Of a stretch of 64,000 bases of DNA, positions 12,291-52,624 are shown in pieces. The notes under the pieces are model-generated. The model was given only the letters and a program-made list of their open reading frames with translations, had not been told where the DNA came from and searched no databases. Source of the DNA: Struthio camelus (taxonomy: Eukaryota > Chordata > Aves > Struthioniformes > Struthionidae); assembly GCF_040807025.1 (NCBI RefSeq), contig NC_090956.1, forward strand, positions 2,716,517 through 2,780,516, in the 5' to 3' direction. The stretch's first letter is position 1. Each line of letters starts with the position of its first letter. The translations under genes were made by a program, and so were the position numbers.

Positions 12291-13934
12291 CAAAATCCAT
12301 CCTAAGATGCATCAAAAAAAGCACACTTCCTGGAGGGGAATAGGAAACAGTCAGCATTTACAAAGATCTCTCCGGGAATTTTTTTTAAGATCCTTCTTTG
12401 AAGTAGATGCTACCAAAGAATAAGGCTTCCAGAGCTCAGCAATATTTAATGTACTTCTACAGTAATGGATGACAATGTTGTTGTTTCAGCTATATTATAA
12501 CAAAAATATTGTGGTTTTCCTGTATTCTAACAAAAGTAGCTTAAGATTTACATCTCATTCATCTTATTCAGAAATAGCACTTAAGCCAAAAATAAGGAAG
12601 GGAGAGACCCTACCGCGAACAAAGGACTTTACTAACCCTCATAGGGTGGCTATCCAGGCAGGGCACAGAGAAAGGACAAAGTAAGGGGTGGGGGGAGACA
12701 ACTGGGAAAAGCACTTTTTCCTGCAACCATCCATGAAAGTGGAACACATACACAGGAGATGAATGACTTCCGTTAAAGCTGATGGGTGTCCTCACCAACT
12801 TAACAAAGGTGTGTATTCATATTGTAAAGTCCAGCTGGTTAAAATAAAGATCCACATCAGACCTGGAAGTTATCAAAAATACACAGGAGTAAACACAGTT
12901 CTCCATACTCCTCCGCTTCTCCAAGCATTTCCTCAATGATCCCAAGTACACCAGAGTGGTAAGTCCACTTACAACCTATTAAGATGACGAATCAGTAAAC
13001 GAGAAGGAGGGTGCAATTCCTTGAAGGAGGGGAGGAATATTCAGTCATCAGTTTTGCAAGCATCAATAACGCATAGAAACAAATGGCTTTAACTTAGGCT
13101 AAACAAATTTATGTTTGTGACTAGCCTAGTGACAGCTTGGGAACATGAGTCTATTCTTCATTCACACAGTGACAAAGCACGCTTCTCCTCCCTACCCATG
13201 CAGCACACCGAGAACCAAGTTAGAAGGGTGAGAAAGCACTACATAACAGTCAACAACAGGCTGGTTTAGGACATTATGCCATGCCAATACTTCCCAGAAA
13301 ACCAAACATATACTAGCAGTTTTCCTAATATTTCTACTAGGAGGAACAAGTTTTCTACTGGGACTTCTAAGTTTCCATTTAGACATCTGACTGTGGGTAA
13401 GAATACTTTACACTGAAACAAAAACAAATCTGTGCAAAGCACTGTAACAAATATTAATCAATCTCCCAGACCCTCTGAGGGAATCATACCTACACCGCAT
13501 GCCAGTGGGAAAATAAGTGAAATGAATACGAGGTTCTTGATGATAATACAAATCGTTGGTGGAAATGGAATTAGAATTTGGGACCTAGAGATACCCCCCC
13601 AGGAAGTGTCTTTTAAATCTTGCTTCACTTTGTAATCCCACGCTTATTTAACTATTCATTGCTAACGTCATCCCTCACCCCCAAATGATGCTGGTAGTGG
13701 TTACACAACCCTTCTACCAAGTTTCCTTCAGTCTCAACTTACAGATTTTATACCAGTTTTCCCTTCCTTAAGGGCATGCAGGGAGAAAGAAATTCAATGA
13801 AAGGTGGAAAATAAAGACAACTGTAACTTATATATTTGAGCGAAAGAAAGTAAGCTAGAGTAATGTAAAAACTACATACCCACAAACGCGCCAATAAATT
13901 ACTACTGCAGATTTTCTCATTTATATTCACTTAC

Positions 13935-13945
13935 CAAAGGAATAC
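13935..13945 (-). CDS. LMF1: LMF1 exon 3, an 11-nt microexon
   Basis: Minus-strand GTATTCCTTTG is flanked by a textbook acceptor (a long T-rich tract ending TTTTGCAG) and a consensus donor GTAAGTG. Exon 2 ends with TG, so splicing gives TGG-TAT-TCC-TTT-G, that is Trp170-Tyr-Ser-Phe and the first base of a Gly codon. Established LMF1 proteins continue W-Y-S-F-G-W-E-S at exactly this point, so sequence, phase and order all agree. Reading straight through instead would give a stop within a few codons. Cumulative coding length after this exon is 520 nt. Skipping it would shift the frame. The next exon, which should begin by completing Gly and then W-E-S, was not found to the left. The splice sites and residues are seen directly; its use is inferred. 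Confidence 0.82.
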
Positions 13946-15859
13946 CTGCAAAACAAAATGAAGAAAAAGCAAAAAAATTAAAATCGCAGTGGATCAACCT
14001 TTTGGATGCATGTCTCAACTTTATTTCAAACGTTTGAATTTCCAAACACAACTGCCAAGGAGTACAAAATTTGCCTGAACCAGGTAACTAAGTAATATGC
14101 AACTCAAAAATTCTAACGGCAAATTCCTTCTCAAAGTGGCCCACTACCTGGAAACGTAAGAAGTGCAAACTCACCTCCTCTTGGGTGAATTAAGCCATTA
14201 TTAGCACTCCAAGCAATTCCCATTCACCCATCTTTCAATAAAGATGCTAAAGCAGCACACCCAAAAGAAACAGCACAGAAAGGCAACCGGTCCAGTCTCC
14301 TGTCACAAGGGAAGTCATTTTCCCAACGTTAGCTTTTCTGGGAAACTCTAAGAATTCCTCCTTCAGCACTGAAGAAGGCTCCGGCTCGCACCTCTGTGCG
14401 CTATGCATGCAAAGCCCAAGCACAACGGGTAAAACAGGCTGCGGTAACTTTATAAAGAACAATTCCTCATTTGCTCTCTGACTTGTGACACTCACCTGAG
14501 CGAGCAATATAGTCGTTTGCGCTGTTTAGCAAGGCTCCACAGCAAGATTATTTATTTATGGTTTCCAAAGCATGCCAAGCACTTCCCCGAGAGAATGCAA
14601 CCAGGCTTTACCCCTCAGGACTTAATGCATGCTGCTGAAATGCAAGAAGTCACTTCTCCTGCAGGTGAACTATATATTCATTCCCCCGTCCCTTTTAACA
14701 CAGCCAGAAGAGTCTATTTAGCATCACTCCAGTCTGTTAGTTGAGTACCGTGTATTAGACACTGAGGCTTGACCAGAATCTAAGGAAAGCGATACATGCT
14801 CATTGAACCATTTTTGCGTGAATTTTTGCCACGTTTTTGGGTGCACAATTTAGTTTGCTTCTCTAACCAATGTTTTTCACTGAAGTTTCCTTTAGCCTTA
14901 GCTACAACAAAGTGATTTTACATAAGATCGCCAGTTCCAATTAAAAGTAAAACCTGCAAGTTAACAAGCTGGACTACACCGTTGTTCTTCCCCACCTTGC
15001 AGAAGTACGCTGCTTATTTCAGACTTCCCAGGTCCGTCCGTATTCCTAAGAAACTCAGCGTTCCCTGGAAGTCCGTTTTGATGCTTTCTCCTGCAACGCA
15101 AAGCCGCAGCTCCACCAGCATGAGTCTGATTAATTTTATTTACTTTGTAGTTCAGCGAGAATCAATTAGATGCCGCCCGGCGCTGCAGGGGCAGAGCTAA
15201 CGCGAACGCGGATACCGGCACCGAGCTCCGCGGCACCCGCAGCCTGGATGCCGGTTCCCGGATCGTTACAGCCGGCGTTCGCTCAGGTTTCCCTGCTGCG
15301 CTTACTCCCACTATGGCTTCAGTCCCTTATCACGGCTTTGCTGTCTGCAGGATATTACATCACGCCAAAAACCAAAACCCAAACAACAAGACTCACCTCC
15401 CCCCAAAAAAACCGAACAAGTCTTTTGGAGGTGTTCGGACAGCCTCTCTCTTACGGACGACGTCCTGTTGAGGTGCGCAAATTTTACACTCGTGCGCGCC
15501 TAGTTCTAATAGTTATGAAAGCTATCCATCCAAATATTTTACTACATGTTTAACAATTTCATATAGGGCTACTGACGCACAGAGAGCAATAACTTCAAAA
15601 CGCACAATAAGTTTTAACTTTCTTAATAAAAGTGACTCTTTATAAAGATATTTGTCATTAAGGGCAACCTAACTCCACTGCTCTCCACCACAATTGTGGT
15701 GCAGTTAAACATAAACTTGTACGAATTATTCTTCTTTCTTGGCAGAAGTAAAGAACCCCCTGAGGCTCATTTAAAACACACACACACAGACACACGCAAA
15801 ATGAGGAATTAATAAAATATTGTATTCTTCTGAACCACATTAACTTTTCTGACGTGTGT

Positions 15860-16621
15860 CTGTTGCTGATTACATCAATCTAGGCTCCGTAACTTGTCAT
15901 GTGATGACAGGCAAACACTTGTGAATTTATTTCTCTGAAGAAGCTTGCGATACAAACGCCAAGGAAACCAAACCAAATGGCCGAGTCCAAATATACATAA
16001 AAGCAGCAGGACTTCTTGCAGGGAATTTTTTTATAGGTACAAATGGGCAGGTACCGAATTCCCTTGGACTCCAGATTGTCGTTTGGAGCCTAATTACCAC
16101 TTCTCCTTTTCAAAGTCCTCTCCCTCGCTTATACATAGTACATAGAAGTGTTTATTAAAAATATATATTTTTCTTCCTACTGTCTGCCTTGGACAATAAT
16201 GTTTGAAACATTACCGAAAGATAACGACAAGTAAAAACATGGATTTGATTTTGTGAGTTTGTTTTTTGGCAAATTGCAAGAGAGTAACTTTTGATCTGCT
16301 CATTGTCAAAATTGGGAATTTTACAAACTCAAAATGTATTCTGCTCATCTTTTGTAAATTAAATAAAAATCATGTGATGTCATTTCTGTCTCGAGTTGGA
16401 GAAACAATGTAATTAGCCATGACTTGTCATTAAAGGCAAAATTTCATATCACACTTAGAAATACTATAAAAATCAGCTGGGAATCATAAACATCATCAAA
16501 TATTTGGGCTAAACTGTTTTCATCACATTGTCACTCCAATTAATTCTAGTTCCAGCAAGTTTGCGGAAAGCAAAAATTAAAAATGATAGCAAAATGTAGT
16601 TTAAATTACATTAAACTACAT
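15860..16621. promoter_or_regulatory. Candidate conserved element with SOX-type sites, LMF1 intron 2
   Basis: About 750 bp of complex AT-rich sequence. It has ACAAT or ATTGT cores at 16193-16197, 16302-16306, 16404-16408 and 16527-16531, a palindromic AATGTTTGAAACATT at 16198-16212, TAATTAGC at 16410-16417, and an 11-bp inverted repeat at the right end. Such elements inside LMF1 introns are plausible SOX8 enhancers. Short cores are common in AT-rich DNA, so this is a lead only. Confidence 0.4.
16594..16621. repeat. Perfect 11-bp inverted repeat with 6-nt spacer
   Basis: ATGTAGTTTAA (16594-16604), ATTACA spacer, TTAAACTACAT (16611-16621). The arms are exact reverse complements. It marks the right edge of a candidate conserved block in LMF1 intron 2. 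Confidence 0.97.
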
Positions 16622-18114
16622 CGCTCCTGATGAAAGCACTTCCCACCACGGGTCTCTGCGGTGGAGCGAGCGTTCGGCAGAGTTGGGTGTGAAGGTTTCC
16701 CACTGGCACAGGGTGCAAACAAACAGCCGACCTGGGGAAGGAATGTAAAAACCCCCCCAAAAAAACAAAAACAAAAAAACCCCACCATGGATCCAGGTAG
16801 CAAAAAACCAACCAAGAACTTCCGTGGGGAGAAGAACTGTCCACACCAGACATCAACCTTGGCCAGGCAGAAAACATGCTCGCTTAAGGCTCTGCCTGGC
16901 GCTGAAGTGGTTGCGCTAGAGCCTTTCGCCTGCATTTTCGCCAGTAGCGTTAGGACTTGTTGCCCCGTCGACAAGAGACAGCTGATGCACTACCTGATCC
17001 CCAGCCAATGCTGCTGGCTAAGGGCTCAAGCACATCTCTTGTTTCCCTTGCTGTTAAGGAAGAGCCCATTAACGCTTTTCACACTCCTCATGGTAGTCGC
17101 TCTTCTCCCCCTTTTCTGCATAAACACACTCTTTTCTTTGGGTGTAAAGCATGTACGGTGGTGGTTTCTATCTGGCCGTGGAATAGGATTTTGGAAGCCT
17201 TTCTTTCTTTAAAATGCCAACCTAGGAAAAGGGTTCGACCAGATTTGCCCAATAAATTTCCGTCCTTTCTCCGCTCGCCCAACCCGCTGCTACACGGATT
17301 ATTTAACACAAGAGTTGTTTGCAGCGAGACGGCCTCCTCTTGTAAGTCTTTAAAACACACGACAAACTTCTATACAGAGCATAACAAATAGTACTAAACA
17401 TGCACAGGAACTCGTATATTTACCTTTACTGATGTTTAGTAGGAAAATACAGATGTATTTATAACTGGGGAAAAAAAGGAACCAGCCCTACCTACCGCTC
17501 ATGTCACGGCAGTGCCCAACAGCCCCAAATCCTTCCAACTACACCGACTTCCACCAGCAGGACAGCTGACTACTACATCCCTCATCTGCAGATGGTGTTA
17601 ACAGCTTCTCTCACTGTTCTCCATAGAGAACATCCTCTACAGAAAGTGAACCCAGATGTCAACTTTCATCTCCGTGATGAAGCTCTCTTTTTCCCTAGGC
17701 TGTACAACTTGGGATGGGGAAAAAGGTATTTGGGTAGTACAGATACATTTTCTATTCTCCAGCAGGTTAAGGTTCCAAACTCTGCTGAAATAAGGTTTTC
17801 CACAGCAGCATCTCTCCAAAATGGAAATGAGGTAGAAGCTATATAACAACGCATTTCTTCCCTATCAAGAGGGGAAGTGAGACACATGACACAATCCATC
17901 TCTTCCCTAAGGCAGTCACCGAGGGAGGGGAGAAAGCAGAAGACTGTTTCCCAAGGGGACAGCAGCATCCTCAGAGCACAGCTGGGAATGAAGCAGATAC
18001 AAAATTAACAGTCAAGAGTTTCCTTCCAAAATTTCAGTGACAGGGAAGGCTGGATGAGCTGCCTGCTATAAATCTGGATATTGCATTAAGGGAGATGGAC
18101 AGGGCTAAACCATG

Positions 18115-18490
18115 CAAGCATGGAAAATGAGGCTGGAAGGAACATTAAAAATCTACATGGACTATCCACCTGCCACAAGATAGGACTGACTGTACAAAAA
18201 TCATTCCTGACAAATGTTTCTCTAGGCAGTGATGGAGACTGTACCTCCCTCTCCAGGTACTCAACCCAATGCTTCTCCATACTTGTATTTAGAAGGCTTT
18301 TTCTTATGTCTAACCTGTATCTCTTTTCCCACCATGTAAACCCATTGCTCCTTGCCCTCTCCACAGGAGACAGCAAGCATGGAGAACAGCTTATTTCCTT
18401 CCTCTCTGCTGGTTTCATGCACTGCAAGATCTTTATCCCTTTTCCCAGCTTCCCTTTTCTCTAATCAACCTCAGCTTCTTCAGCACAACA
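18115..18490 (-). mobile_element. Decayed CR1 LINE 3'-end fragment
   Basis: Read on the minus strand, the segment follows the order of a CR1 3' end: a GAAGAAGCTGAGG-type block, a GGGATAAAGATCTTGC block, AAGGAGCAATGGG, ACAGGTTAGACATAAGAAAAAGC, then GAGAAGCATTGGG, CTGGAGAGGGAGGTACAG and finally the GTTCCTTCCAGCC tail. It is several substitutions per 20 bp away from young CR1 copies and is truncated at the 5' end, so it is an old, dead insertion. No reverse transcriptase remains. Confidence 0.85.
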
Positions 18491-18889
18491 GGTCACCTTC
18501 TGCACCTCTGCTGAAGCGCGTGGCTTCTTGACTGCCCAAAGTGGGGCCCCATCCACTTCAAGCACAATGTTACAACCCAAAGCAAGACGTTGGCCGACAC
18601 CTTCCCAGCTCCAAGAAGTGGAAAACTTCTTCCACTGCTGCGTGCCACACGACGCTCCTTTTAAAAAGTTCCTGGCTTACATACCTGAAAGCTTGTTTGG
18701 TGAACCACAACATATGAATCAAATTAAAGCTGTAAGCACTTTAGGACAAGGAACATCTTTTATAGATACACACACATATATAAAAATGTACAGTACCTTG
18801 CACTTGTGAATCCAGTTCCTTAGTGTGCTACCTCAAAATAAAGACAACAGCTGGCAAGCATCACATGCGAGAAACCAAGAATGCTCACA

Positions 18890-19150
18890 GTCCATCAAAA
18901 TGAGATGATAAAATTAGTCTAGTACACCATTAATTTTGGAGCATCATTAACTTAAAAGTGTGGGGGTAAGAAACATTTTTGACAGCTGGTTTCATTTGCT
19001 GCCAAGCCCTTAGTATTGCGCAGCGGTGATGGGGGGAGGAAATAAGCTAGAATGGTTGTAAATGAAACCACTCGTCTGGTTTCTGGATTCACTTTATTGT
19101 GGTCACAGATCTCTAAAAACTGGGATTTGGTGCTCTGTAATTACAACATC
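18890..19150. promoter_or_regulatory. Candidate regulatory block, LMF1 intron 2
   Basis: AT-rich complex sequence with TGACAGCTG at 18980-18988 (overlapping MEIS-type and E-box motifs), a TTTATTGTGG word near 19093-19102, and several ATTA cores. No repeat or ORF explains it. Confidence 0.3.
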
Positions 19151-22100
19151 CACATTTAAATGGAAGGAACGGGGAGAAGGAAAAAAAAAAAGAAAAAGTG
19201 CTCAAAGATGAGGTTTGCTCCTTACTTTGCACGTGGTGCTGGAACAGGCGCCTGCAGAGAATTGCAAGGGACCAGAAAGATGAAGAATGAGACGCAGCCT
19301 TCCTCCCGGAGCAACACTGGCTGCTCAGCTACACCCACATCCCATCCTACATCCACACGTACAGCCGCTCTGTGGTAGGCCACTGCCACAAGGTCTCTGC
19401 ACAGCCGAGCAAGCTTCGGCTCCCACACACTAATCCATCGAAGCAGCAATGCACCATTTTATTTTCCCATTGCAAGGCAGGGAAAAAGGCTTGGTTAAAA
19501 GACATCTAAAAATGTGAATTACCTAATAAGCCCTGGTGCTCGCCAAGCTTTCTGTCTGTGCTTATTTCCAAAGCTAAAAGTTATTATGAGCCCTGGCTTA
19601 CACAGCTGCAAAATTTGCCAAACTCGAATTAAGTTTGCTTTGGTTAAATCCTTCCAGTGCCAAAACCAGAGGCTGAAATGGCAGCCTAGAGAAAGCCACT
19701 TAGAGCTGCTCCTTCAACTGGACTGTGAATCAAAGGCTGAAAACACAAGAATCTGAGCAGCACGCAGAAAGGGAAGCAGCAGAAAGCACCGCAGGGTCCC
19801 TCTGCTGCTACTTATCCCAGCCCGAGTCCAACGGGAGCCTCACCAGGCTGCCCGACTTGCCGAAATCGCTGCGCTTCCCTAGAGAGAAAATCACTTCAAA
19901 CAAAAGCATGCGCCCAGCAAGCGGAAACAGGTAGTCGTGGGAAATAAAGGGATAAGCTTCAATTCAAGTTGGCTTGAACTCCAGATCAAGAGGACAGCCC
20001 TGTTACAGCATTTCGGTGGTTAGACGCGTGCATGCACAAGAGAGAAGGTGTGATACAAGGGCTCGAGTTCAGCTTTTGTCAGGACGCAGCAGCAGAAAGG
20101 TTTTGTATTTCAGCTACCGAAATGCTGACAGGTAGTGTTTTATAGAAATGTAAAATTCTAGCCATGCCTTGAGGGAGAGGGAGGGAAAAAAATATATACA
20201 CATATATTTAATTGCATTAATTAATCCCTCTCCAAAGGTTGTCCTCCCTGCTCCCCACCAGCCATCCTACAGACTGAATGTAATTCCTTATCAAAGCACC
20301 TGCAGCAGGGTTATCAGTTCCTGTGAAAACGTGCTAATTTCTTCTACACCAAGTCTTTTAAGACATCAGTTACTTTAAGTTTCCATCTCCTTTCTACGAC
20401 AGAGCGTTCCCCTAGGAGGGCTTCTGCAGCTTTGCCGTGACTTTCCTCCTGTTCTCCAGGACAGGACTTCCGTTTAGCCAAACGGATCTGGAACATTGCT
20501 CAAGTAACATGGTTCAAGCCGGCAAGTAATTGTTGTTACAGAGCAATCCCAGCCCAGTTAACAACCTACACGACTAGCGGTGAGCGCTAGTCTTGAGAAC
20601 ATTTTTCCTGATTAAGACCCTTAGGGAGGTTAGTAAGCACATATTCCACCAAGGCTTGGACACTTCCCGAACCCTGGACTGCCGCTCGGCTGTACCGATC
20701 AGGACATTAACATTCTTTCCAACCACAGCTGTTGGAGAAGTTAGATGAGTTAAGCAACATGAACGTGTGCTGGACCAGACCGGGCGCATGAAGCTATTTG
20801 GCAAGTTGTAGTTAAAAAAAACTAAACAAAATTATGAAAAACATTTTGCATTCTTTTCTTAAATCTTTCAGCTGTGGAATCAATACTGAAGTCTACAAAC
20901 TGGATACAGCTGGCAATTGGATGTGCCAGATAATAAGCAATTAGAAAATATTTGCCTCAGTCTCTGGCAAAGCCTGTGGTACATCAGACACTACACAGCC
21001 ATGCCACTAACCACATAATCTTCTGATAATTTCTTTGCTCTCATTTTCTCATGGGCTGTGATTTGCAGAAGTCACTGGAAGCCCAAGACCGTTTAGGCAA
21101 AGAGAACAGTGGGGTGTTATTAACTGTCCATCTACTATAAACTCCCTGTACAACTGCCTTAGCCCATATTCCAGTCTAATCGCTGCTGATGTTTTAACAC
21201 GGTCTTTTCATGAAATCAAGTTAGAGACAGTGGAAGTAGGAAGGAGGTGAAAAGAACATCACTACATGCCTTTCACCAACATTTGCTGTGTTATCAAAGC
21301 ACTAAGCTCAATGAGGTTAAGTCATTTTGTCAAGCTTTCTGCAAAGCTAAGCAACTGTATGCTTTCCTAATGCTACATACCGCTAACAGTCTTGACACTT
21401 CGACAGAAACTATTACTGGGATTAACCAACATGAGAAAAGGTTATCAGCCAGGATATTTGCCAGTCAACGTCAAAGTGCACCTCTAACCCCCGAGCACGC
21501 GCTGGGTCAGGAGCTCTGCTCCGTGATGGGATGCACGCAGCGGTACCGGCTCAGACACAGCAGGCAGCATCTAAACACCTCTGGAGCACCCGGCAACGAG
21601 GGCATAACCCTACAGCCGCAGCAGGCAACCTAATGGGACCCTAGACATGACAGTCTTCTAGCATAGGCAGAGACACAATACTTAGTGAATTAATGATTTT
21701 AGTAGACCTTTGCCTATCTTAGAGCAGGTTTAAATTAAAAAAAAAAAAATCCAAATATGCTATTGACTGAAGTGAAACCAGTAATTACAACAAATCAAAA
21801 CAATAAGTACAACCAATTTAAAAGATTCCTCTTTCATTTCCCTCCTTTTAATGTATTTAAGCTCTTGCAAGCGTTCACATCATTCAGATGACGTTAATCT
21901 TAGGAGCACTACTTGCTACAAAAATCAATAGCCTCATCAGCACTGCTGCAATTCCCATTCTGCAATTGCTCAAGAAATCCCAGTATGCAGTTTTACCAAA
22001 GCCACTTCTGCTGGTTTTCATGTTTTGTCTCAATGGCATGTTAGACTGACTATGGGTCAGCTCATCCCCAGGAATACATCCAATGGGAGCAGGCAACTAC

Positions 22101-22599
22101 CAGACCTGATGCAACCTGTGACCCCACAGCTTTCCTCACTGCTCCACCAACTACTAGGAAGTTATTTGGCAGCTTTTCCTCTACCAACAGCTCATGCAGA
22201 TCATCTCAAATTCGTGTCATAGCTGGACCTGGCTTCTTAACCCAACTCATCTCCACCTCCTAGCCTTTCAATCCACTCCATGCTCATAAACTAAGGTTTT
22301 TAAGAAGGCAGGCAGGCAGGAAGGCACTCAAGTCTCCCTGCGTTCCCTATGGAATCTGTGTTCTTTGTCCCTCCTTGCCCACTTAAAAAGCCCAGGAACA
22401 CACATTTACAGGTCCAAGGAACTAAGGAAGGACAGTCAGCCCTGAAGATTTCTCTTCCATGTTATCCTAAAGAGGGCTGGAGCCCAGCTAGGCCAAATGC
22501 CAGGCAAGTAGACAGCAAGGGGCTGTCCTCTATAAAGGATGGCTGCTAAACTAGAAGCCAGCCTAGGGTGGGGAGGGCAAACCTTAAACATGCCAGGGG

Positions 22600-22830
22600 G
22601 AAAAGCATTAAATGATTCATTTCTGACATCAGCTATGATTAAACTTTAATCTCTCAAAAAATATGGTTTTCATTAGGCTCATTAGTTCCCAGTTGTACTG
22701 CAAGGCAACAGTGTCACATGGTATTAATCTTTGTTTTCATTAATATGTCAGATCAACAGCTCACGTCTGCTCGCAGCATTCTTTGAAACTGATACGCTCC
22801 CTCTCTTCTGTATGAGTAGGAAGTGCCAAA
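22600..22830. promoter_or_regulatory. Candidate regulatory block, LMF1 intron 2
   Basis: AT-rich sequence with ATGATTAAACTTTAAT, a CTTTGTT SOX-type word at 22729-22735, TTCATTAATATG and CAACAGCTCACG. Word use resembles developmental enhancers. Confidence 0.3.
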
Positions 22831-23094
22831 AAGCAGCTTCCTCTACAGGAAGGATGACCCCCTGAGATCCTTCAACTTTTGGTTTACGTTTCTAGAGATA
22901 ATCTTTTCTTTCTGGGGAAAGAGGGAGGGAAGTTCAGAGTAGAAGGGATGGGAGACTGTGGTCCACAATAACAAAGAAATTCCTGAGGTTTATTGCCAAG
23001 GCAAGGGTCAGATAAAGCAATAAGATATTCTATGTTTTCTTGTTGTTATTTAGATAGTTTGGAGATCTAGAAAGATTAAGTCAGGTTGCAAAAA

Positions 23095-23124
23095 GGGTTA
23101 TCTGCAAGAGGGTTATTTGCAAAG
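23095..23124. repeat. 15-bp imperfect tandem pair
   Basis: GGGTTATCTGCAAGA (23095-23109) is followed directly by GGGTTATTTGCAAAG (23110-23124), 13 of 15 positions equal. It sits in an AT-rich, regulatory-looking block. Confidence 0.85.
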
Positions 23125-25075
23125 CCCCTAACAAACTTCAGATGAATGCAATTTAGCATACACGTCAAGGTGATATCTGTTATCTTATTGTGATTCAACT
23201 AAAAACTTTTTTTTAAAAATACAAAATGACTTGCTAGCTGCACGTCCATATCAATTTTTGCTTGCACTTCAAATATTAATATCTGAAGAGAAGATATTAA
23301 GTAGGCCCTCCAGTCTTTCAGTGCAACCCTGGTATCACCCTCTAGACAGGCAGATAAAGCAGAATATAAACTAAAGAGCTTGTGAAAGTTGCACAGTAAG
23401 TACAGCTTGACACATCAGTTCCTGGCTGTACAGCGAGGTCTCAGTGAACTTCCCAAGCACACTAGGGAAACTCAGGACACAAGTTTCTATTCCCTGCTTG
23501 CACTGCTCATGATTTTTAGTGTTTACTTGCTCAGGACAGTCAAGAAAGTCTTGCTGAATCACCTACACTAGTGAATAAAAGATGCATTAGCTCACATGCA
23601 CCAAGCCCATGCGGAGACATTCATTCACGCTTGAGGTGGCTCTGGTTTGCTGGAGCCTCAAAGGATGATTGTCATCTGTATTTCGCATGTCAGACTAGGT
23701 ACCCAGCTTATAGCTAAGAGAGAGCTCCATGAGCACTGTGCCCTTGTCATGGACAGTCACAAACCTGCACATTCAAAATCAGGAATAAAGTTTACTAAAC
23801 CCAGTCGACAATTCACACACTGGGTGATTTGCAAGCTGGAATAAAAAATTCAGAAGAGATCCGTTTCTAACCTTTCTTGGATGGGATGACACTAGACAAA
23901 AAACTCAGGACCTTTAGTTGGGGTGGTGGGGAAAGAGCCGCAAGAAAGAACATGGGGAAACAGTCCGTTTAATGGCTGCTAAGGCCCTCCTGGAGAGGGA
24001 AAACACAGCCCTGAGCATCTCATCAGCCCCCTAGCATTTAATGGAGTTCAGCCTGAGCCATTCCCCAGTTCATCTGCTAGCAGACAGAAGACTGTGATTA
24101 AAGTCCTGCACAGGTCAAGTGGTTTTTAATGAGACTTATAAACCACAAAACCTCTGTGACATAGAAGTCTTTCTTCTTTCTCTATTGTAAAGGAACTTCT
24201 AAGGATGGTAATTTAACTGCAATTAAATTACATGCCTCAGAGACATGCTTTCACGACCTGCAGTATGCCTGTCCCTCTAATAAGTCCTTTAATATTAAAG
24301 TCAAAAGTCATTAATATTATGTTCAATCAGCTAAATATGAAAAAAACAGCAGACATTAGGAGCCAGAAAGACAGGTACGTCCTCTTCTGTGCTCTAGCTA
24401 AGCGCTGCAGCATCTGCCACTTTTTGGAAACCACCTGGGCACCCTGGCTTCAAAGGGCAAGTGAGCACAATTCGAAAGGTATTTACCAACAACCTCAGGG
24501 GGGGTACAGTAGTGAAGCACAGCTCGGTTTTCCATGTAGAAACAAAGGTGTGCTGCTTAGTCCTAATTTATCCTAAATATCGGTGAGCAGTAGCTCCACC
24601 AACATTTTCCACAGGGAAGAACACACCAAAAAGAATGTGGTAACCACCTCATACTATAACATTTTATTTATTGGCTTGTTTAACCTATTCCCTTGAGTTC
24701 TTCTAACCACACCAGAATCTTAATCACAAAAGAAAAAGGCAATGGGATTTTAAAAACCACAATTCTAGCTTTTTTATTAAGTGTTGCAAATTGTACCCGT
24801 GAATGCTCTCCAGCAGTGGACAATATACTTTGTAAAACGAAGCAGCACAATAGCTAAGAGAAAGGAGAGGGTTTTCAGATTATATTTGAAAATGTCGAGG
24901 GGGTTCAATGGGGAAACAACAGAAGAAGAAGCAGGAGATCAGTGGAAGAGTAGTTTAAAAGTTTGTTTATATAAGAAAATGTAATAGCTCTCAGGGGGCA
25001 CCTTACTCTGGGATAAAAGTGATTTTATTCCAGAATTATAAATTCACTTTGGAAGTGAAGTTATTCTGATGGTTT

Positions 25076-25078
25076 AAA

Positions 25079-25127
<49 letters not shown>
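25076..25127. repeat. A12 followed by (GA)20 microsatellite
   Basis: Uninterrupted A run 25076-25087, then 20 perfect GA units 25088-25127. The purity suggests a length-variable locus. Confidence 0.97.
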
Positions 25128-25131
<4 letters not shown>

Positions 25132-25752
25132 TTTTGCTCGAATGCCTCTCACAGAGAATTTGTCCTGACAAAGGACCTTTGCTGCTGATGGTCCATCTCC
25201 GCATACATATGCCCCAGCAGAAATGGCAGGGAATAAACCACAAATAGAGGTTTAATGAGGTCACCTGCAACAAGCTCAGAAAGTATTTTTGCTTTTAAGC
25301 AAAAGGGGCAACTTTTCACATTCTTGTTCAAATCTAATACAATATTAACATTCAGGAGGGAAGAAACAGGGAGAAAGGCGGGAACATTCATATTTGACCT
25401 GAGGAGCAGCATCATCTTCCAATGACAGAATCTAGACAAGTAGGACTTGTGGTATACAAAAAGGGACACTGAAGGATAAGGAATTCCCACAAAATCTTTT
25501 CAAGGATCTCTAGCTTCCTGAAATAGCTTCCATTATAGTCAAATTGGGATGGCTTTTTACTATTATTTTACTAAAATTAGAGATACTTTGCAAAAATGAA
25601 AAGGAAAAAAAAAAATCAAGGCTAAAATTAACTATAAAGATTAGGCTCTTTACCGAGCCTATGGGTCAGGCTTTAAATATTCTTTGTGCACTGGCAGTGT
25701 TTTGGCTTTTTGACAGCCTCCTCCTATTTAAAAAGGAAAAGTTCAAAATGGC

Positions 25753-25764
25753 GGGGGGGGGGGG
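25753..25764. repeat. G12 homopolymer
   Basis: Uninterrupted run of 12 G in LMF1 intron 2. Confidence 0.95.
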
Positions 25765-28700
25765 AAGGATTTTAAGATGCAGACATGCTCAGCTTGTGAT
25801 GTGAGCACGGCACCATTATACATATGCCCTGTGACAACAGGGAACATGTCTAGATCTTATCTGAAAAGAACCTGAATATCACAGATGCTTTGGGAACAAA
25901 GTGCCCAGAACTGCAGATGCTTTCCTGTGCATTCCACTTTTAAACTTGGCAAAGGCAGTCTTGGCCTCACATTTCACAGGTACCAAAGTTACCACGCTGC
26001 TCTCCAAAAGCTAGCCTACTTCAACCACAGTACATCTTATCCCAGACAATCTACCTGCGCTTTGGCAGAGCTGATAGCAAACTGGCAAATTTGAGGATTT
26101 AGGTCCAGGATAACATCTTGGCCTCAGTTTTCAGGATTTTAAGTTTCCAAAGGTCCTTACAGTAATCCTCATCCTGACAGATCTGTCACAAAGGGCTCAC
26201 ATCAGCTGGCTCCAGGAGCTGCCTTCTTCCCTGCAAAACCCCAGAGACATACAAGCTTTCAAAATCCAACCACCTTATAAGGACCAGGCGCTGCCCAAAA
26301 GCTCCATCCTCTAGTAATTAGGCTGAGACCTGCCATTTCCTCCAAAGATGCTGCCCCGCAGTGCTCAGACAGCAGTCGCCTCGCTCACCCCCAACCTCCC
26401 ATTTCCCACAGTCATTAACTAGCTTCCTTTGCCATCCAGTCTGGCATCTTTTCCCTTCTGGATTTTAAATCATGTTTCATTTTTACCAAATTAAGGGGTT
26501 GTAATACCCTCGAAGACCTTTAACTCTTTCCTTGCGGTGCTATCACGGCAAGGCTCAGCGCTCCCCCAGCACAGAGCGTTTTCCCCAGCTGCTGTGGCTC
26601 AAAGGGGTGGCAGTCAGCAGAATCGGGAGCAGCAGTCAGTGTCCTGCCTTTCAAAAGAGACACTTCACTCTTCTGAAGCTTCCTCTGACTCTGAGCCCAA
26701 GCCAGCTGGACAGCAGTTGAAAGACTCACTCCTTCAGCATTGCCTGCTATTTGGAAACTCCAGCCCAAAACAAATAGAAACATTTAAAATTAAAATAGAA
26801 GAAAAAGGCGATAAAGGAATAAATTGTTCCTCCTTGGCCTACAACAGATAACTTTTTCTAAAGAAACAGAGGAACAGCAGAGAAACAGCAGAGGAACATT
26901 AAGACGGACCATCGGCTGCCCTAGATATGTGGGGAGATGCCAGTATGAGCGTGCAACCTCCCTGAGGCACCTTAAGACAATCTCCATCTACAAATCAGCG
27001 TGGAAAGGGAGTTTTAAGGCCAACACTGTCACCCACCCATCCGTGATCGGCAGCAAGACTCATGAGATTTCAGGTACTCTCAGCCCATATCTAGTGCCAC
27101 GAGAAGTCTTTGGAGGATGGTGAGAAATTAGTTAATTCCCCTTTTTCTCCCTCCTGCCTTCTACTTGCACCGTAAGCACCTAGGCACCCAGCATCCATGT
27201 CTCCATGGAATTGAATGTCACAGTGTATGCACAATAATAATATGGTTTTGACCACCCAGTGACCCATTTCAGAGGATCTAATGAAAAATACAACCACGGC
27301 TGAATGAACTGTAGTGCTGGGTTGCTTTGATTCTCTCCCCCCGCCCCTTTACATGAAGAACTTAATTTCCTGTTTAATACATTTGATGCCACAACTAAGA
27401 GATGGAATTGAGGCAACGCCTCTTATCCTCCCACCTTTTTTCTCTCACCCTTTCCTCCCCCAGAAGAACCTGTCCCATTCTCTTGGCAGGCTACTACTGC
27501 ATGCCATGAGCAACCCACTTGCAGCAACATAGCTTTTAAACTCCAAACCTGAAGCAGCGAAGGGGGCGAAATGGCCTTATCTCAAAAAACAAGAGACAAT
27601 TCCTTTCAAACACAGCATCCACCAAATGCAAGCCCTGGGCTCTGCTTGCATTACTGTTGGCAGACCCATTGTCTTCAGAGCTGCAAAGAGACCTGAAGCT
27701 TGGCCGTGAGCTGCTAAGGAAGAGACATTTGGACATGGTCTGCTGAATGCTGGTGGCAGTTCAATGAATCAGAAGAAAAAGGTTCCCTTCTCTATCCCTC
27801 CTTCCTTTGCCTCTCCCTCAAAGACTTGGAAGATAACAAAGCAGCCACTCAGAGAGAGTTAAATAGGCACAATTGGATTTATTTTGGCACAAGCTCAAGA
27901 TTTCTGCAGGAACGTTACCCCTGCAACACCTGCAGAGAAGAGGTCACACCTCTGCTTTCAGCGTGCTTTTTACCAGGAAAAGCAGCTGGGAGCAGAGGGC
28001 AAGCACAGAAAGCACAACCGCCCAGCAAGGCATGAAGAACACATTCTGGTCACTTTTTCCACCAAAACAGTGATGACATGGTAATACTGCTATAACCATG
28101 GCACCAGTATATTGAGAACTCCAGATTGCCTTATGAGCACTAAAGTAGTAAGCCTATCACGGTAATTTCTTGATTATTGCACTCCTTCAGGAGCAAGCAA
28201 GATCAAACCGGAGGCCAATACAGGTCCAGCTTCCAGCTGCAAAATCTTGCAGCTTTAATAATGCTTTTATTTTACAAAAAGGCAAACAAAGATATCAAGC
28301 AATACATCTAGATTTGGCTGCTACAATGACCCGAACTCCAAAGTCTCTGGAAACGAGAGCAGGAAGATACTTTAATTCTTGCCCAGTAACCTAAAAGGCC
28401 TAGAAAAAAGACAAGTGATTTTAGAATAACTTGGGAACAGGCAACAGAATATGATCGACTGAGTTATTTTTCAAATGTTGGGGCTTTCTGTCATAGTTTC
28501 AGGTTCCCACCGAGTTAAGAGCTCAGAGAACAGAGCTTCTCAGAGACCTGAAGCAGTTATCATTCATCCAGTTACAAACCAATCAGAGTAGGGTAGGAAA
28601 GAATGGGGCAGTACAAGATGCAGGGCTGCTCAAAAACATGCAGATCCTTAAAATTAAAGTCACTGAACCCATCTGCAGGGAAGGAGTCCTGTCATGTATT

Positions 28701-29416
28701 GTAGAGCCAGAACATTGGGGCAGAACATCGCAGTGACACAGCAATACTGCTTGTCCCCCCTGCCGCAGTGTGGGTACTGTTTCCTGGCATGGCCTTCATC
28801 TCTGCTACCAGCAGAACGATGGACAGATACCTGAAGAGGTGAACTAATGAAAACTGATTTCCTAAAGGCTCATCCTCTCCTAATCAGCATATTTGGGGCT
28901 TTAAAAGGGGCAAGACCCAACTAAAGCCTTTCCCGTTTGGGGCGCCGACAAGGATTTCTTTTAGCCTGTATTTGCACTACAGCCTTTTCCTGATGTGAGC
29001 AAACCTTACAGAGGCTCACTATTTCTCCTTTCTCATTTCCTACAGGTTTTATGTGCTCATCTCCAGTGCTCAGGCTGGCTCCTGGACAGAACTGGAAATC
29101 AATAAACCAGCTCAAAGGTAATTATTAGGGGAATCCTCTTGCAAGAGTCATGAGGGAATATACTCCACAACAGGGATGACGTGCAGCTCAGTACGTTATG
29201 CAGCTGAGCACCAAGAACGAGGCAAATCAGGACAGGTGTCTCAGATAAGAGCGGAGTATGCCCATAACCCATAACTGAAACGCTCCTTTGCCAAATACGT
29301 TCCTTCTCCAACAGGCCTACATCACTGCTTACCAGACTACCAACCTCAAGGAACTAGAAATTCAATGTATACAATGAACAACAGAGGAAATCAAAGCAGA
29401 GAGATTGTTAACCTAC

Positions 29417-29726
29417 CAGATCTGTCCAACATTGACGAGCGAGAGGTAGAGAATCCACAGGACAGCCATGAGGATCATGTTAGCACATCCAGTTACCAAC
29501 ACAAAGGCTGAAGTTGCCAGGCCGAACCCAGAGAGGTAGTCCAAGATGCTGTCCATGTTTGACCAGTCCAGAAACCAGATGATCGTTGGGGCATAGCTCA
29601 GTGCATCCAGACTTATCTTCCCTTTGAAGTATCTTTTGACATTCTGCAGGTACAGTTTACATGGGAGCAGCCCCTTTTCTCCTATCAGCTGCTTGTTTTG
29701 ATGGTAAGCCACCAAGAAGGCCACAA
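29417..29726 (-). CDS. LMF1: LMF1 coding exon 2 (membrane helices and first lumenal region)
   Basis: 310-bp internal exon encoding LMF1 residues 67-170. It completes the first membrane helix (V-A-F-L-V-A-Y-H-Q-N-K-Q), then covers a loop with L-L-P-C and the invariant-looking P-T-I-I-W-F-L-D-W-S segment. Two further hydrophobic stretches follow, including V-L-V-T-G-C-A-N-M, and the exon closes with S-L-V-N-V-G-Q-I-W. This matches mammalian LMF1 almost residue for residue in spacing. The acceptor on the minus strand is CCTCTAG just above 29726; the donor is GTAGGT starting at 29416. The exon enters in phase 1 and leaves in phase 2, splitting Trp170 as TG/G. It is separated from exon 1 by about 10.4 kb and from the microexon by about 15.5 kb. 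Confidence 0.97.
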
Positions 29727-40164: not shown

Positions 40165-40363
40165 GGTAAAGCAGGGCTATGGCGCGCAGCAGCACGATGC
40201 GAGTGAGCCAGAAGGTACCGGCAGGCAGCGACGGGCCGGTCTCACCACTACCCGGCTCCGGCCCCACCGCCCGCCCCGGGGCTTCGGGGGAGCCGCGCCG
40301 CGCTGCCGGCCGCCGCCTCAGCGCCGCGCTGGGCGCCGCCATGTCGCAGCCCGCAGCGAGCAT
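40165..40363 (-). CDS. LMF1: LMF1 coding exon 1 (lipase maturation factor 1, N-terminus)
   Basis: First coding exon of LMF1, the ER-resident multi-pass membrane protein needed for folding and dimer assembly of lipoprotein lipase, hepatic lipase and endothelial lipase. It encodes 66 residues plus one base. The hallmark is the stretch G-T-F-W-L-T-R-I-V-L-L at residues 49-59, which in mammalian LMF1 opens the first membrane helix; before it lies a disordered Arg/Pro/Gly-rich cytosolic tail. The exon ends at a GTGAGT donor (minus strand, from 40164) in phase 1 and joins exon 2 to make Leu67. I chose the upstream ATG at 40361-40363 because human LMF1 also starts seven residues before an internal M-A-A-P. 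The second ATG (40340-40342, context GCGACATGG) has the better Kozak match and could be used instead. The exon lies inside a CpG island. Confidence 0.93.
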
Positions 40364-48459: not shown

Positions 48460-48913
48460 GGGCGAGCGGGCGGCCACGCCCCGTATGGAAATGAGCACCG
48501 CCCGCTCCGCCAATGGGCAGCGGCGCCGGGGGCGGGGCCGCTCGCCCTCGCCTTAAAGTCACTTGTTGCCGGGGGCCGCGTTTCGCACTGGACGTAGAGC
48601 GCGGCGGCGGGCCGGGCCGGGCGGCGGGCGCGGGGCGCGGAGCGGCGCGGAGCCCGGGCGGCGGGCGCGGCGGTGCGCTGGGACTGCGAGGAGAGTGTTT
48701 TTCCGGCTGATTTCCACGCGTCTGTGGGATTTTTTTTTTTGATTTTTTTTTTTAAATCCCTCTTTTTTGGGCGCTCGCCGAGGGCTGTGCGGCTCTGCGG
48801 GCAGCACCGCTCCGCGCTGCTCCGCCGCCTTCTCGCCCTCGGGCTTTTCCTGCCCTTGCCCCCATCTCACCCCTTTCCCCCTCCCCCCAAATCCCCCCTT
48901 TCTCCCGCCACCA
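48460..48913 (+). promoter_or_regulatory. SOX8: SOX8 core promoter region and 5' UTR
   Basis: A CCAAT box at 48510-48514 is followed by a GC box (GGGGCGGGG type, about 48528-48540) and a weak TATA-like CTTAAAG at 48552-48558. This arrangement suggests initiation near 48575-48600, giving a 5' UTR of about 310-340 nt. The leader has two T-rich runs (48730-48752) and a pyrimidine-rich stretch just before the start. I see no ATG between the one within the CCAAT region and the SOX8 start codon, so no upstream ORF is expected from a start in this zone. The exact start site is inferred. Confidence 0.6.
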
Positions 48914-49359
48914 ATGCTCAACATGACCGAGGAGCACGACAAAGCGCTGGAGCCCCCGTGCAGCCCCGCGGGCACCACCAGCTCCATGTCCCACGTGGAC
49001 TCGGACTCGGACTCGCCGCTGTCCCCCGCCGGCTCCGAGGGCCTGGGCTGCGCCCCCGCGCCGCCCTCGCAGCGCCCGCCCGGCGCCGCCCCGCTGGGCG
49101 CCAAGGTGGACGCGGCCGAGGTGGACGAGCGCTTCCCCGCCTGCATCCGCGACGCCGTCTCGCAGGTGCTGAAGGGCTACGACTGGAGCCTGGTGCCCAT
49201 GCCCGTGCGGGGCAACGGATCGCTCAAGGCCAAGCCCCACGTCAAGAGGCCCATGAACGCCTTCATGGTGTGGGCGCAGGCCGCCCGCAGGAAGCTGGCC
49301 GACCAGTACCCGCATCTGCACAACGCCGAGCTCAGCAAGACCCTGGGCAAGCTGTGGCG
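48914..49359 (+). CDS. SOX8: SOX8 coding exon 1 (N-terminus, dimerisation region, first half of HMG box)
   Basis: Encodes residues 1-148 and two bases of Arg149 of SOX8, a SoxE-group transcription factor of the nucleus. The start is the ATG at 48914 in context CCACCAATGC, giving [10 protein letters not shown], the canonical SOX8 N-terminus. A Ser/Asp/Pro-rich segment (about 24-40) precedes the SoxE dimerisation region (about 68-100, with [13 protein letters not shown] and [10 protein letters not shown]). The HMG box begins at about 109 with [12 protein letters not shown], which also holds the bipartite nuclear signal (K111-K127). The exon ends at CG/GTGAGT, phase 2, within the codon for Arg149 of K-L-W-R, the conserved SoxE intron position inside the HMG box. 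Confidence 0.98.
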
Positions 49360-50698
49360 GTGAGTCCCGCGCCGCGCAACCCCCGCGGGGCACCGCTCCG
49401 TGCCGCGCACCGCCGCCGGGGTTTGCGCGCTGCGCGGCCGGGCCGCCCGGCTCGGGGAGGGGGCGACGAGCCGGGGCCGGTCCCGGTCCCGCAGGGACCC
49501 CGGGGCGAGCACGGGGGGCTCTGAGCCGCGGCGCGTATCTGGATTCTTCCTCCCGCCACCGCTTTTTTCTTTTTGCATCTCTTTATTTTTTGCATCCGTC
49601 TCTTTTTTTCCTGCCCGCGGGGGATTCTTGAGCCGTTTCAGACTGAAGTGCAAAAATCCCCCGGAGTGCGGTCGGCACCCTGCAAAAGGACTGGCCGGTC
49701 CCTGCTCCAGAAAAGCCCCCGTGCAGGCGCCCGCCGCGGGCTCGGCGGCGCGGTGGGGTCCGGTCCCGGCGCTGCGGCACGCACGGATTTTCCCCGCTCC
49801 ATCCTTGGAGATGCGCAGCCCTGGACCCTCTCCTCTCCCGACCAGGGTTCCCCACATCCCTGCTGCAGGGAAACTGCTTTTTTTAAAATTGCTTATTTTA
49901 CAGCGTGGTTTTTTTTTTTTCCCCGAAAATATTTTCCTGGCTTACTTGCTTGCTGCTTAACAAGCTTTGCAACCAAACAAGCCGATTTTTAGCAATTATT
50001 TTAATCTGCTTTGTAATTTCCCTTCTTATCTGCATGCTTACATGATCCGTGCTACCCACTGGTGCAAACTCTGGTACCGGGCAGCAGCAGAGCGTGCTCT
50101 GCTTCGTGGGGCTCGTGACGAGCCACACTTTGCTGCGTGTCGCGGTCGGCCGCGGCTGGCTCTGCGTGGACTCGTGTGTCCGCTGCCCGCTCAGCCAGCG
50201 GTGTGCCTGCTGTGCTTCGAGCCTCTCTGGCACTCAGCAAAGAGGTCTGGATGGGAGAGAGTTTTAAAAGAAATAATCGCATCACTGTGGCCTCTGTGGT
50301 TTCCTTGTAAGCAGCAAACAAGGCTGGAAATGGGCAACGCTGTTTGTCATGGCGAGGGGGTGGCATTTCTGGGACGAACATGGGAATAATGTTTAGTAAA
50401 GGGATTATAAAGGGGTATTTAAAATGGGGTGAGGGGATTTTGTTTTGCCCTGTTGTCAGTGTCTGTAGTGAAAGTTTTTTCGTGTCTCTAGTATTTTAAT
50501 ACTTTTTTTGCAACATGGTTTAGCTGGTTTTTTGTCATAGCAAATTTGTTGTGCAACTAGCTTTCTGGTTGCCCAAGTCAGTGCACAGAAAGTGGGGATT
50601 TAAGTCTGAAAATAGATTGAGAGCTTCTAAGGAAAAGACATTAACTTTGGATTTTTTCCTCCCTCCCCCCCCCCCCAAAAAAAAAAATCCTAAACCAG
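49360..50698 (+). other. SOX8: SOX8 intron 1
   Basis: 1339 bp with GTGAGT donor and AACCAG acceptor. The first 200 bp is still CpG island. The 3' end is unusual: a C12 run (50665-50676) followed directly by A11 (50677-50687) and then TCCTAAACCAG, so the polypyrimidine tract is separated from the AG by an A-run. No exon seen within. Confidence 0.9.
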
Positions 50699-50937
50699 TT
50701 TACTAAGCGAAAATGAGAAACGTCCCTTTGTGGAAGAAGCTGAGCGACTCAGGGTCCAGCACAAAAAGGATCACCCGGATTATAAATACCAGCCACGGAG
50801 GAGGAAAAGCGTGAAAGCTGGGCAGAGTGATTCTGACTCGGGAGCTGAGCTGAGCCACCACGCGGGCACCCAGATCTACAAGGCAGACAGCAGCCTGGGA
50901 GGCATGGCAGATTCCCACCACCACAGCGATCACACAG
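50699..50937 (+). CDS. SOX8: SOX8 coding exon 2 (second half of HMG box and linker)
   Basis: 239-bp exon completing Arg149 and encoding up to the first base of Gly229. It carries the rest of the HMG DNA-binding box ([13 protein letters not shown], then [12 protein letters not shown], ending about 188). This includes the second nuclear signal P-R-R-R-K (181-185) and a basophilic phosphorylation-type site at Ser186. After the box comes a Ser/Asp-rich linker (S-D-S-D-S-G-A-E) and a His-rich stretch (D-S-H-H-H-S-D-H). The acceptor is CCAG at 50695-50698 and the donor is G/GTAAAG. Frame and phase (2 in, 1 out) agree with the neighbours and with other SoxE genes. Confidence 0.98.
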
Positions 50938-51887
50938 GTAAAGGGGCGTGCGGGCAAAAAAGCTGCTGGCTCCCCGAGGCGTTGGTTTGTGGAATGAGCC
51001 TGCCGGCAGGCACGAACTCACCGCCCCCCCACCCCCGCGCATGCATGGAAATCTGGGGTTGGGACCTTCCAAAAGCGGGAGTCCTTGCCCGGGGAGCTGT
51101 GTGGGGTTTTTTTGCACCGGGCTGTGAATGTGGCCATGGTTTTAGTTAGTAAATGCTTCAAGTCAACAGTGCGATAGGAAATCCCCCGCCAGTGCAAAGG
51201 GATTCTGGTTTACCAGCTGGCCTGGGAGCAGGGAGAACTAATTGAGCGAGAATAAGGGTTAATAATCCCTTGGCGATGTGCGAGATGCCTGGGGGAGCAG
51301 GCCCCGGAGGTGAGACCATGAGTTTCACCCTGGAGCTTCCCGATTCCCCGGCAGAGCTTTGAATTGGCAAACTGTGAGTGTTGACAGATTCCAAGAGGAT
51401 TGCTAACGTCCGGTAACTTCAGACATGCCTGTGCTCTTACCGAGCCTGTCTGCAGGATCCCAGCCCCTTCCCTTGCCTCGCCGCACCGCGAGGAGGGCCT
51501 TTGCGAGCCCTGTGAAATCAGGGCTCGCTTTGCGCTGGGTCCCTCCTAATCCCACCCAACTCTGCTTTCCCGTCAAGAGCCAGCTTGGGTGGCCAGGGTT
51601 TCCTGCAGTGCCCTGCTGGCGAGCAACCCCGGACAGACCAGTGCGTGGTCTCCAGCTCCTCCCCATCCCTCTTGCAGGCAGTTTACCCCAGGCGAGGCCT
51701 CGGCGCCTGGCCGTCACTGCGGGGACATCGGCCAGCTCCGGCATGGGGCAGTAGATTTAAATCCCCCCCTTCCCCTCTTGCAATAATGGGGGGAAAAATG
51801 TGCACGCGCTTTCCGGCTCCTAGAGAGAGCCGGGCGGTGGGCTGGCGCAGACGCTCTTGTGAAAGCCTCGCTCTCCTTCGTCCCCAG
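50938..51887 (+). other. SOX8: SOX8 intron 2
   Basis: 950 bp with GTAAAG donor and a pyrimidine-rich acceptor ending TCCCCAG. No exon or repeat of note inside; the sequence is moderately GC-rich. Open frames seen here are shadows. Confidence 0.92.
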
Positions 51888-52624
51888 GCCAGACCCATGG
51901 GCCGCCCACGCCGCCCACCACCCCCAAGACGGACCTCCACCACGGCAGCAAGCAGGAGCTGAAGCACGAGGGCCGCCGCCTCGTGGAGAGCGGCCGCCAG
52001 AACATCGACTTCAGCAACGTGGACATCTCGGAGCTGAGCAGCGAGGTCATCAACAACATGGAGACCTTTGACGTGCACGAGTTCGACCAGTACCTGCCGC
52101 TCAACGGCCACGCTGCCATGCCGGCCGACCACGGGCCCACCGCTGCCGCCGGCTCCTATGGCACCTCCTACTCGCACTCGGCGACGGGCAGCAGCGGGGC
52201 CGCCCAGGTGTGGACTCACAAGAGCTCGGCCTCAGCCTCGCCGTCATCCGCCGATTCAGGCCAGCAGCGGCCGCACATCAAGACGGAGCAGCTCAGCCCC
52301 AGCCACTACAGCGACCAGTCCCACGGCTCCCCCGCGCACTCCGACTACGGCTCCTACAGCGCCCAAGCCTGCGCCACCACTGCCAGCACCGCCACGGCCG
52401 CCACCTCCTTCTCCAGCTCCCAGTGCGACTACACGGACCTCCAGAGCTCCAACTACTACAACCCTTACCCCGGCTACGCTTCCAGCATCTACCAGTATCC
52501 ATATTTCCACTCGTCGCGGCGTCCCTACGCGACGCCCATCCTGAACGGCTTGTCCATCCCGCCGGCCCACAGCCCCACTGCTAACTGGGACCAGCCGGTC
52601 TACACGACCCTGACGAGGCCTTAA
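51888..52624 (+). CDS. SOX8: SOX8 coding exon 3 (central and C-terminal transactivation regions)
   Basis: Final coding exon, residues 229-473 and stop TAA at 52622-52624; the three exons total 1422 nt, giving 473 residues, the usual SOX8 size. It opens with the Pro/Thr-rich G-P-P-T-P-P-T-T-P-K-T-D-L. The conserved central (K2-type) activation region follows: R-Q-N-I-D-F-S-N-V-D-I-S-E-L-S-S-E-V-I and D-V-H-E-F-D-Q-Y-L-P, about 264-300. A consensus sumoylation motif I-K-T-E lies at 359-362. The Ser/Tyr-rich C-terminal activation domain ends V-Y-T-T-L-T-R-P, the hallmark SoxE tail. An Ala/Thr run lies at about 390-400. SOX8 binds AACAAT-type sites singly or as SoxE dimers and acts in neural crest, glia, gonad, limb and otic development. 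Confidence 0.98.

Follow-up and report, generated by a model that had tools for sequence, protein, structure and literature searches.

An 11-nucleotide coding exon of LMF1 in Struthio camelus, most likely constitutive and very probably shared with human

Microexons are easily lost from gene models. In plants, those of up to 15 nucleotides (nt) are often missed or misannotated (PMC8831610), and a 2015 survey of human micro-exons of 6–21 nt reported many that were novel (PMC4317164). Micro-exons that are constitutive have strong splice sites, and those constitutive in human brain tend to lie between short introns (PMC4317164). A closer set of examples is provided by five microexons of 4–7 base pairs (bp), none divisible by three, for which no skipping of endogenous transcripts was seen in the cell lines tested (PMC9929638). 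Here, we describe an element of this kind in a 64,000-nt stretch of Struthio camelus contig NC_090956.1, hereafter the window. We are highly confident that 11 bases on its minus strand form the third coding exon of the lipase maturation factor 1 gene (LMF1). The exon is ordinary and most likely constitutive, has a length that three does not divide, and is very probably shared with human.

The exon and its reading frame

Read on the minus strand, positions 13945 to 13935 are GTATTCCTTTG, with ...TTTTTTTGCTTTTTCTTCATTTTGTTTTGCAG directly upstream and GTAAGTG directly downstream (Table 1). Exon 2 ends in ...GGACAGATCTG/gtaggt and exon 4 begins at ...cactacag/GATGGGAATC. The codons spanning the three exons are TG+G, TAT, TCC, TTT and G+GA, which encode W-Y-S-F-G ahead of W-E-S, in a read-through of Q-I-W-Y-S-F-G-W-E-S. 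The initial annotation had proposed an 11-nt coding LMF1 exon at this site, and an open 570-residue gene model, an alignment of relatives and a chance test bear it out in coordinates, strand, letters, splice sites, phase and residues. Only its account of the junction needs amending: exon 2 joined to the microexon gives W-Y-S-F plus one base, and the full block requires exon 4, because the last G takes two exon 4 bases.

The exons of LMF1 were located using the window and 200 kilobases (kb) downstream of it. The model comprises 11 coding exons (199, 310, 11, 149, 66, 168, 184, 154, 184, 113 and 175 nt), amounting to 1713 nt in one open frame of 570 residues, with AG/GT at 10 of 10 introns; its start codon is a chosen, putative ATG, a second in-frame ATG lying 21 nt further in. 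The microexon is exon 3, and without its 11 bases exons 2 and 4 are out of frame. Taking a coding microexon to be an internal exon of at most 30 nt with canonical sites that keeps the frame, this one is 11 nt long, is bounded by AG and GT, and leaves all 570 residues open. Exon 4 lies 24.8 kb beyond the window start, across an intron of 38,687 nt. In the spliced protein, hmmscan identified Pfam LMF1 at 229.6 bits (cut-off 27), with the match starting at residue 171, the Y of the microexon, as well as Pfam LMF1_C (PF25179) at 178.8 bits (cut-off 34.2). A search of the same protein against NCBIfam returned no family, and Rfam returned no match at gathering scores within the 64-kb window. Exons of a paralogue, which we take to be LMF2, lie separately on contig C1, and the identity of the gene as LMF1 also fits the human protein, with 8 of its 11 published positions below 300 agreeing at a single offset, and a presumed SOX8-like neighbor arranged head to head with the gene.

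The acceptor is T-rich, ending in TTTTGCAG, and the donor reads GTAAGT. Pyrimidines make up 25 of the 30 bases of the acceptor tract and T alone 22, and the nearest AG upstream ends 51 nt before the acceptor AG. Splice-site scores, here and below, come from approximate weight matrices; by these the acceptor, at 14.2, is third of the ten in LMF1. Exons 2 and 4 are 54,169 bases apart. Of the 3823 AG sites in this interval, 3 equal or exceed the score of the microexon's acceptor, and of the 3278 GT sites, 18 equal or exceed that of its donor, both counts including the microexon's own sites; the only AG/GT pair 3–51 nt apart in which both scores reach that level is the microexon itself. The pattern AG-G-TAY-Ser-TTY-G-GT, written from family residues after the site had already been seen, matches once in this interval and in none of 200 sequences simulated by a first-order Markov model; the bare codons, freed of the splice sites, also match once, where 0.305 would be expected. 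A 411-base stretch around the microexon matched only itself in the same genome, in a search that skipped very common words and scored the best candidates alone; a repeated origin of the flank is rejected on this result.

Prokaryotic relatives of the protein are intronless, and present the same residues as continuous sequence. One genome scan yielded 184, and all counts given here are on the best 80 (loci L028–L107), among them many bacteria and halophilic archaea; the closest of these 80 is 52% identical to the LMF1 protein in its best segment. The alignment crosses both microexon junctions in one piece, with no gap, in 80 of 80 relatives. Every one of them has the same Y and G as the microexon, and the same W after it. 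The residue at the S position is always S, G or A, and that at the F position always F or Y; at the W whose codon the first base of the microexon completes, 34 have W and 46 have F. One of the two patterns used to find relatives contained the microexon motif, yet the 40 of the 80 that were not selected by it still carry Y, G and W. Across the 495 columns covered, all 80 relatives equal the LMF1 protein in 29, and Y and G are among these. Other parts of the family are better conserved than the W-Y-S-F-G block as a whole, which ranks only 130th of 491 five-residue windows by majority fraction owing to variation at its W, S and F positions. The intronless relatives provide strong evidence for this exon from sequence rather than RNA, and a comparison of this kind could be applied to other genes.

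The place of these residues in the fold can be judged from a predicted model of one intronless relative (L057, which heads an alignment that includes 31 of the 80). There, Y-S-F-G are residues 121–124; a helical turn precedes them, its last residue being 120, and a helix follows from 125. The model has a mean predicted local distance difference test score of 88.9, falling to about 80 in the block that contains the loop, and a predicted template modeling score of 0.90. On this basis, W-Y-S-F-G is predicted to form a tight loop that connects two membrane-domain helices. A family profile run against PDB sequences gave no match up to E = 1. The tiny exon carries strongly conserved residues of an ancient protein family, and annotation that drops it produces a broken LMF1 model.

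The human counterpart

Human LMF1 offers an independent count of exons. All 11 LMF1 exons were sequenced in one study, which gives exon numbers for 14 variants (PMC7068683, Table 1), numbers for three further human variants are given in another (PMC10887881, Table 5), and the human transcript NM_022773.4 is described with 11 exons. When the microexon is counted, 17 of 17 published exon numbers fit our model, as opposed to 2 of 17 when it is left out, and this result is stable over alignment offsets from -10 to +13. Residue spacing was compared using human residues from PMC7068683, PMC12409453, PMC11679916 and PMC10887881. Below residue 300, 8 of 11 match the protein described here at an offset of +2, on both sides of the microexon: G36 and T143 before it, G172 at its edge, and L177, G228, R230, R233 and N249 after it. 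The exon numbers and the matching spacing therefore place an extra exon in human LMF1 at this point, with the same residue count. Human exon 3 is very probably the counterpart of the microexon. A human counterpart, for which the initial annotation suggested looking, is supported as far as the extra exon is concerned; that it would be exactly 11 nt long we infer. Likewise, the warning that annotation would tend to miss such an exon holds in general, as the surveys cited at the outset illustrate, but is probably wrong for human LMF1, with its 11 exons and fully consistent numbering.

One consequence would concern a disease variant. p.Gly172Arg is listed, with reference to another study, among the four of 12 tested missense variants that lowered lipoprotein lipase activity in medium (PMC7068683). 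Human codon 172 corresponds to residue 174 here, a codon split G/GA between the microexon and exon 4. To turn Gly into Arg, a single-base substitution has to strike position 1 of human codon 172 (c.514); in the gene described here this position closes the microexon and adjoins its donor. Making the changes that Gly-to-Arg demands in the sequence of this species lowers the donor score from 8.7 to 5.1 or 4.4; the weakest real LMF1 donor also scores 5.1. It is possible, if rather doubtful, that this human hypertriglyceridemia variant, treated as missense, may also be a splicing variant, should the boundary be conserved. Were that so, carriers would have microexon skipping, a frameshift and loss of messenger RNA (mRNA), all invisible to assays that employ complementary DNA (cDNA) constructs. 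If the human boundary is the same, substitutions at the two margins of exon 3 merit splicing as well as cDNA tests, beginning with p.Gly172Arg.

Inclusion, skipping and rival readings

We envisage that the spliceosome would define this tiny exon through its strong, uninterrupted T-rich acceptor and GTAAGT donor, and would join exon 2, which ends in phase 2, to exon 4 through it, supplying W-Y-S-F-G. When the model is spliced in silico without the microexon, the frame shifts and a stop follows after 222 residues, in exon 5, which confirms the initial annotation's claim that dropping the exon breaks the frame. Nonsense-mediated decay of such a transcript would be expected, because later exon junctions remain after the stop. 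Exons 2 and 3 together measure 321 nt, and their joint skipping keeps the frame and removes 107 residues. By analogy with described cases, inclusion of the microexon is probably constitutive. Set beside the strong sites of constitutive micro-exons and their U2AF-type motif at 10–20 nt upstream (PMC4317164), the acceptor is third of ten and the donor sixth of ten in LMF1 by the approximate matrices, with T at 22 of 30 tract positions.

Several points weigh against this interpretation. The exon boundaries of the LMF1 model were hand-picked from homology and splice signals, and the donor of the microexon, scoring 8.7, reaches only the sixth rank just given. The flanking introns are long, 15,471 and 38,687 nt, and depart from the short-intron tendency of constitutive human brain micro-exons, and TGCATG occurs 155 nt downstream of the microexon. 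The wider family shows variation in the motif, LMF2 having L-Y-F-Q in place of Y-S-F-G. With regard to human LMF1, the numbering strictly shows one extra exon between c.428 and c.697, and not its length; R82, R264 and A287 mismatch at +2, and above residue 300 only 1 of 18 residues matches, the offset not holding there. Lastly, four of the five 4–7 bp microexons were not fully included in short HeLa reporters, that of MPC1 alone being constitutive (PMC9929638).

Some of these points would suit a microexon that is real but alternative, in which tissue-regulated skipping leads to decay of LMF1 mRNA and acts as an on/off switch for lipase maturation, as the initial annotation had proposed. We consider this improbable. 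As regards features of regulated neural-type microexons, whose inclusion is tissue-specific and controlled by RBFOX, PTBP1 or SRRM4, the locus has TGCATG, an RBFOX-type word, at +155, UGC and UCUU words within the pyrimidine tract, and a length that is not a multiple of three. Skipping would be destructive, through frameshift and early stop, and the long introns also favor regulation. RBFOX and PTBP1 motifs accompany known regulated micro-exons (PMC4317164), and splicing quantitative trait loci (QTLs) have been reported for LMF1 (PMC8081720, PMC12870565). However, micro-exons regulated by RBFOX and PTBP1 tend to have weaker sites (PMC4317164), whereas the acceptor here is among the stronger ones of its gene. 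Neither QTL report points to exon 3 in the excerpts at hand: if the genome builds agree, the one LMF1 intron whose ends are given there by a glioma study (chr16:918097-918944) lies near the 3' end of the gene, because it is beyond c.1264 (chr16:920035, PMC12409453), and the text of a heart study gives just a variant position. The nearest precedents, the five comparable microexons, are without skipping in endogenous transcripts (PMC9929638). The proposed switch is unsupported. The microexon is a fixed coding part that is easily overlooked, and not a demonstrated switch.

A recursive-splicing exon (RS-exon) is less probable again. Here, the joining of exon 2 to a microexon that starts with GT would recreate a donor, CTG/GTATTC, by which the exon could then be removed. 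An acceptor AG followed by GT is the layout of annotated, mainly constitutive RS-exons (PMC6224609). Nevertheless, RS-exons are defined by a recreated donor above a threshold of strength (PMC6224609), and the one recreated here scores 2.2, against 8.7 for the microexon's own donor and 5.1 for the weakest real donor in LMF1, by the same approximate matrices. With a recreated donor this weak, recursive splicing is rejected as very unlikely. Least probable of all, and to be set aside, is a chance match, in which these bases would belong to an intron and some other place would supply the codons for W-Y-S-F-G. A match of 11 bases is short, and a further small exon is possible in principle, but codons with splice sites occur once in 54 kb and never in the simulations, no second bare-codon site is present, and no other AG/GT pair 3–51 nt apart in the interval attains both scores.

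An ordinary coding exon of LMF1 is the reading we retain. In the open-licence literature, no description of an LMF1 microexon was found, the word "microexon" standing beside LMF1 in a reference title alone. The portion examined, a minority of the matches, nowhere says how long human LMF1 exon 3 is, and the available excerpts of PMC12326015, on horse LMF1, and of PMC12528612 do not mention the microexon.

Beyond the first exon of LMF1, a gene that we take to be SOX8-like, by its motifs, synteny and the human neighborhood, is arranged head to head with it. Of its open frames, the first contains an HMG-box stretch and the last ends in ...PVYTTLTRP.

Table 1 Positions of LMF1 features and of neighboring open frames in the window
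Feature	Position	Strand	Detail
LMF1 coding exon 3 (microexon)	13935..13945	minus	11 nt, GTATTCCTTTG; completes W, encodes Y-S-F, starts G
5' splice site of microexon	13927..13934	minus	GTAAGTGA
3' splice site of microexon	13946..13978	minus	T-rich tract and CAG
Intron, exon 2 to microexon	13946..29416	minus	15,471 nt
LMF1 coding exon 2	29417..29726	minus	310 nt; ends in phase 2 at ...CAG ATC TG
LMF1 coding exon 1	40165..40363	minus	199 nt from chosen ATG
Presumed SOX8-like open frame, first	48767..49363	plus	HMG-box stretch
Presumed SOX8-like open frame, second	50730..51149	plus	
Presumed SOX8-like open frame, last	51983..52624	plus	

Comparison with described microexons

The closest system is exon 3 of human LMF1 (NM_022773.4), which belongs to a gene of eleven exons, agrees in all 17 exon numbers and in residue spacing, and has the glycine codon 172 at its 3' edge; it differs in that its length and flanks are deduced and not read. 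The microexons of MPC1 (4 bp), TNNI1, TMEM237, KSR1 and MUSK, of 4–7 bp, are likewise tiny, coding, not a multiple of three and cause a frameshift if skipped, and that of MPC1 shares the long flanking introns of LMF1 (PMC9929638). These, by contrast, belong to unrelated genes and have been tested at the bench. The 9-nt AP2 microexon of plants, encoding VYLG, is also a tiny exon with the core motif of a conserved domain that annotation often misses, but its length is a multiple of three and its domain, in plants, is unrelated (PMC8831610).

Within the same genome, LMF2 provides a further parallel. Its version of the loop, V-G-Q-V-F-L-Y-F-Q-W, is carried by a candidate 29-nt exon (C1:754863-754891), although both intron positions, as placed by the alignment, and the loop residues differ from those of LMF1, and the 5' phase of the 29-nt exon is putative. 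It is as if the same protein loop had twice been placed on a tiny exon, of 11 nt in LMF1 and, in the candidate, of 29 nt in LMF2.
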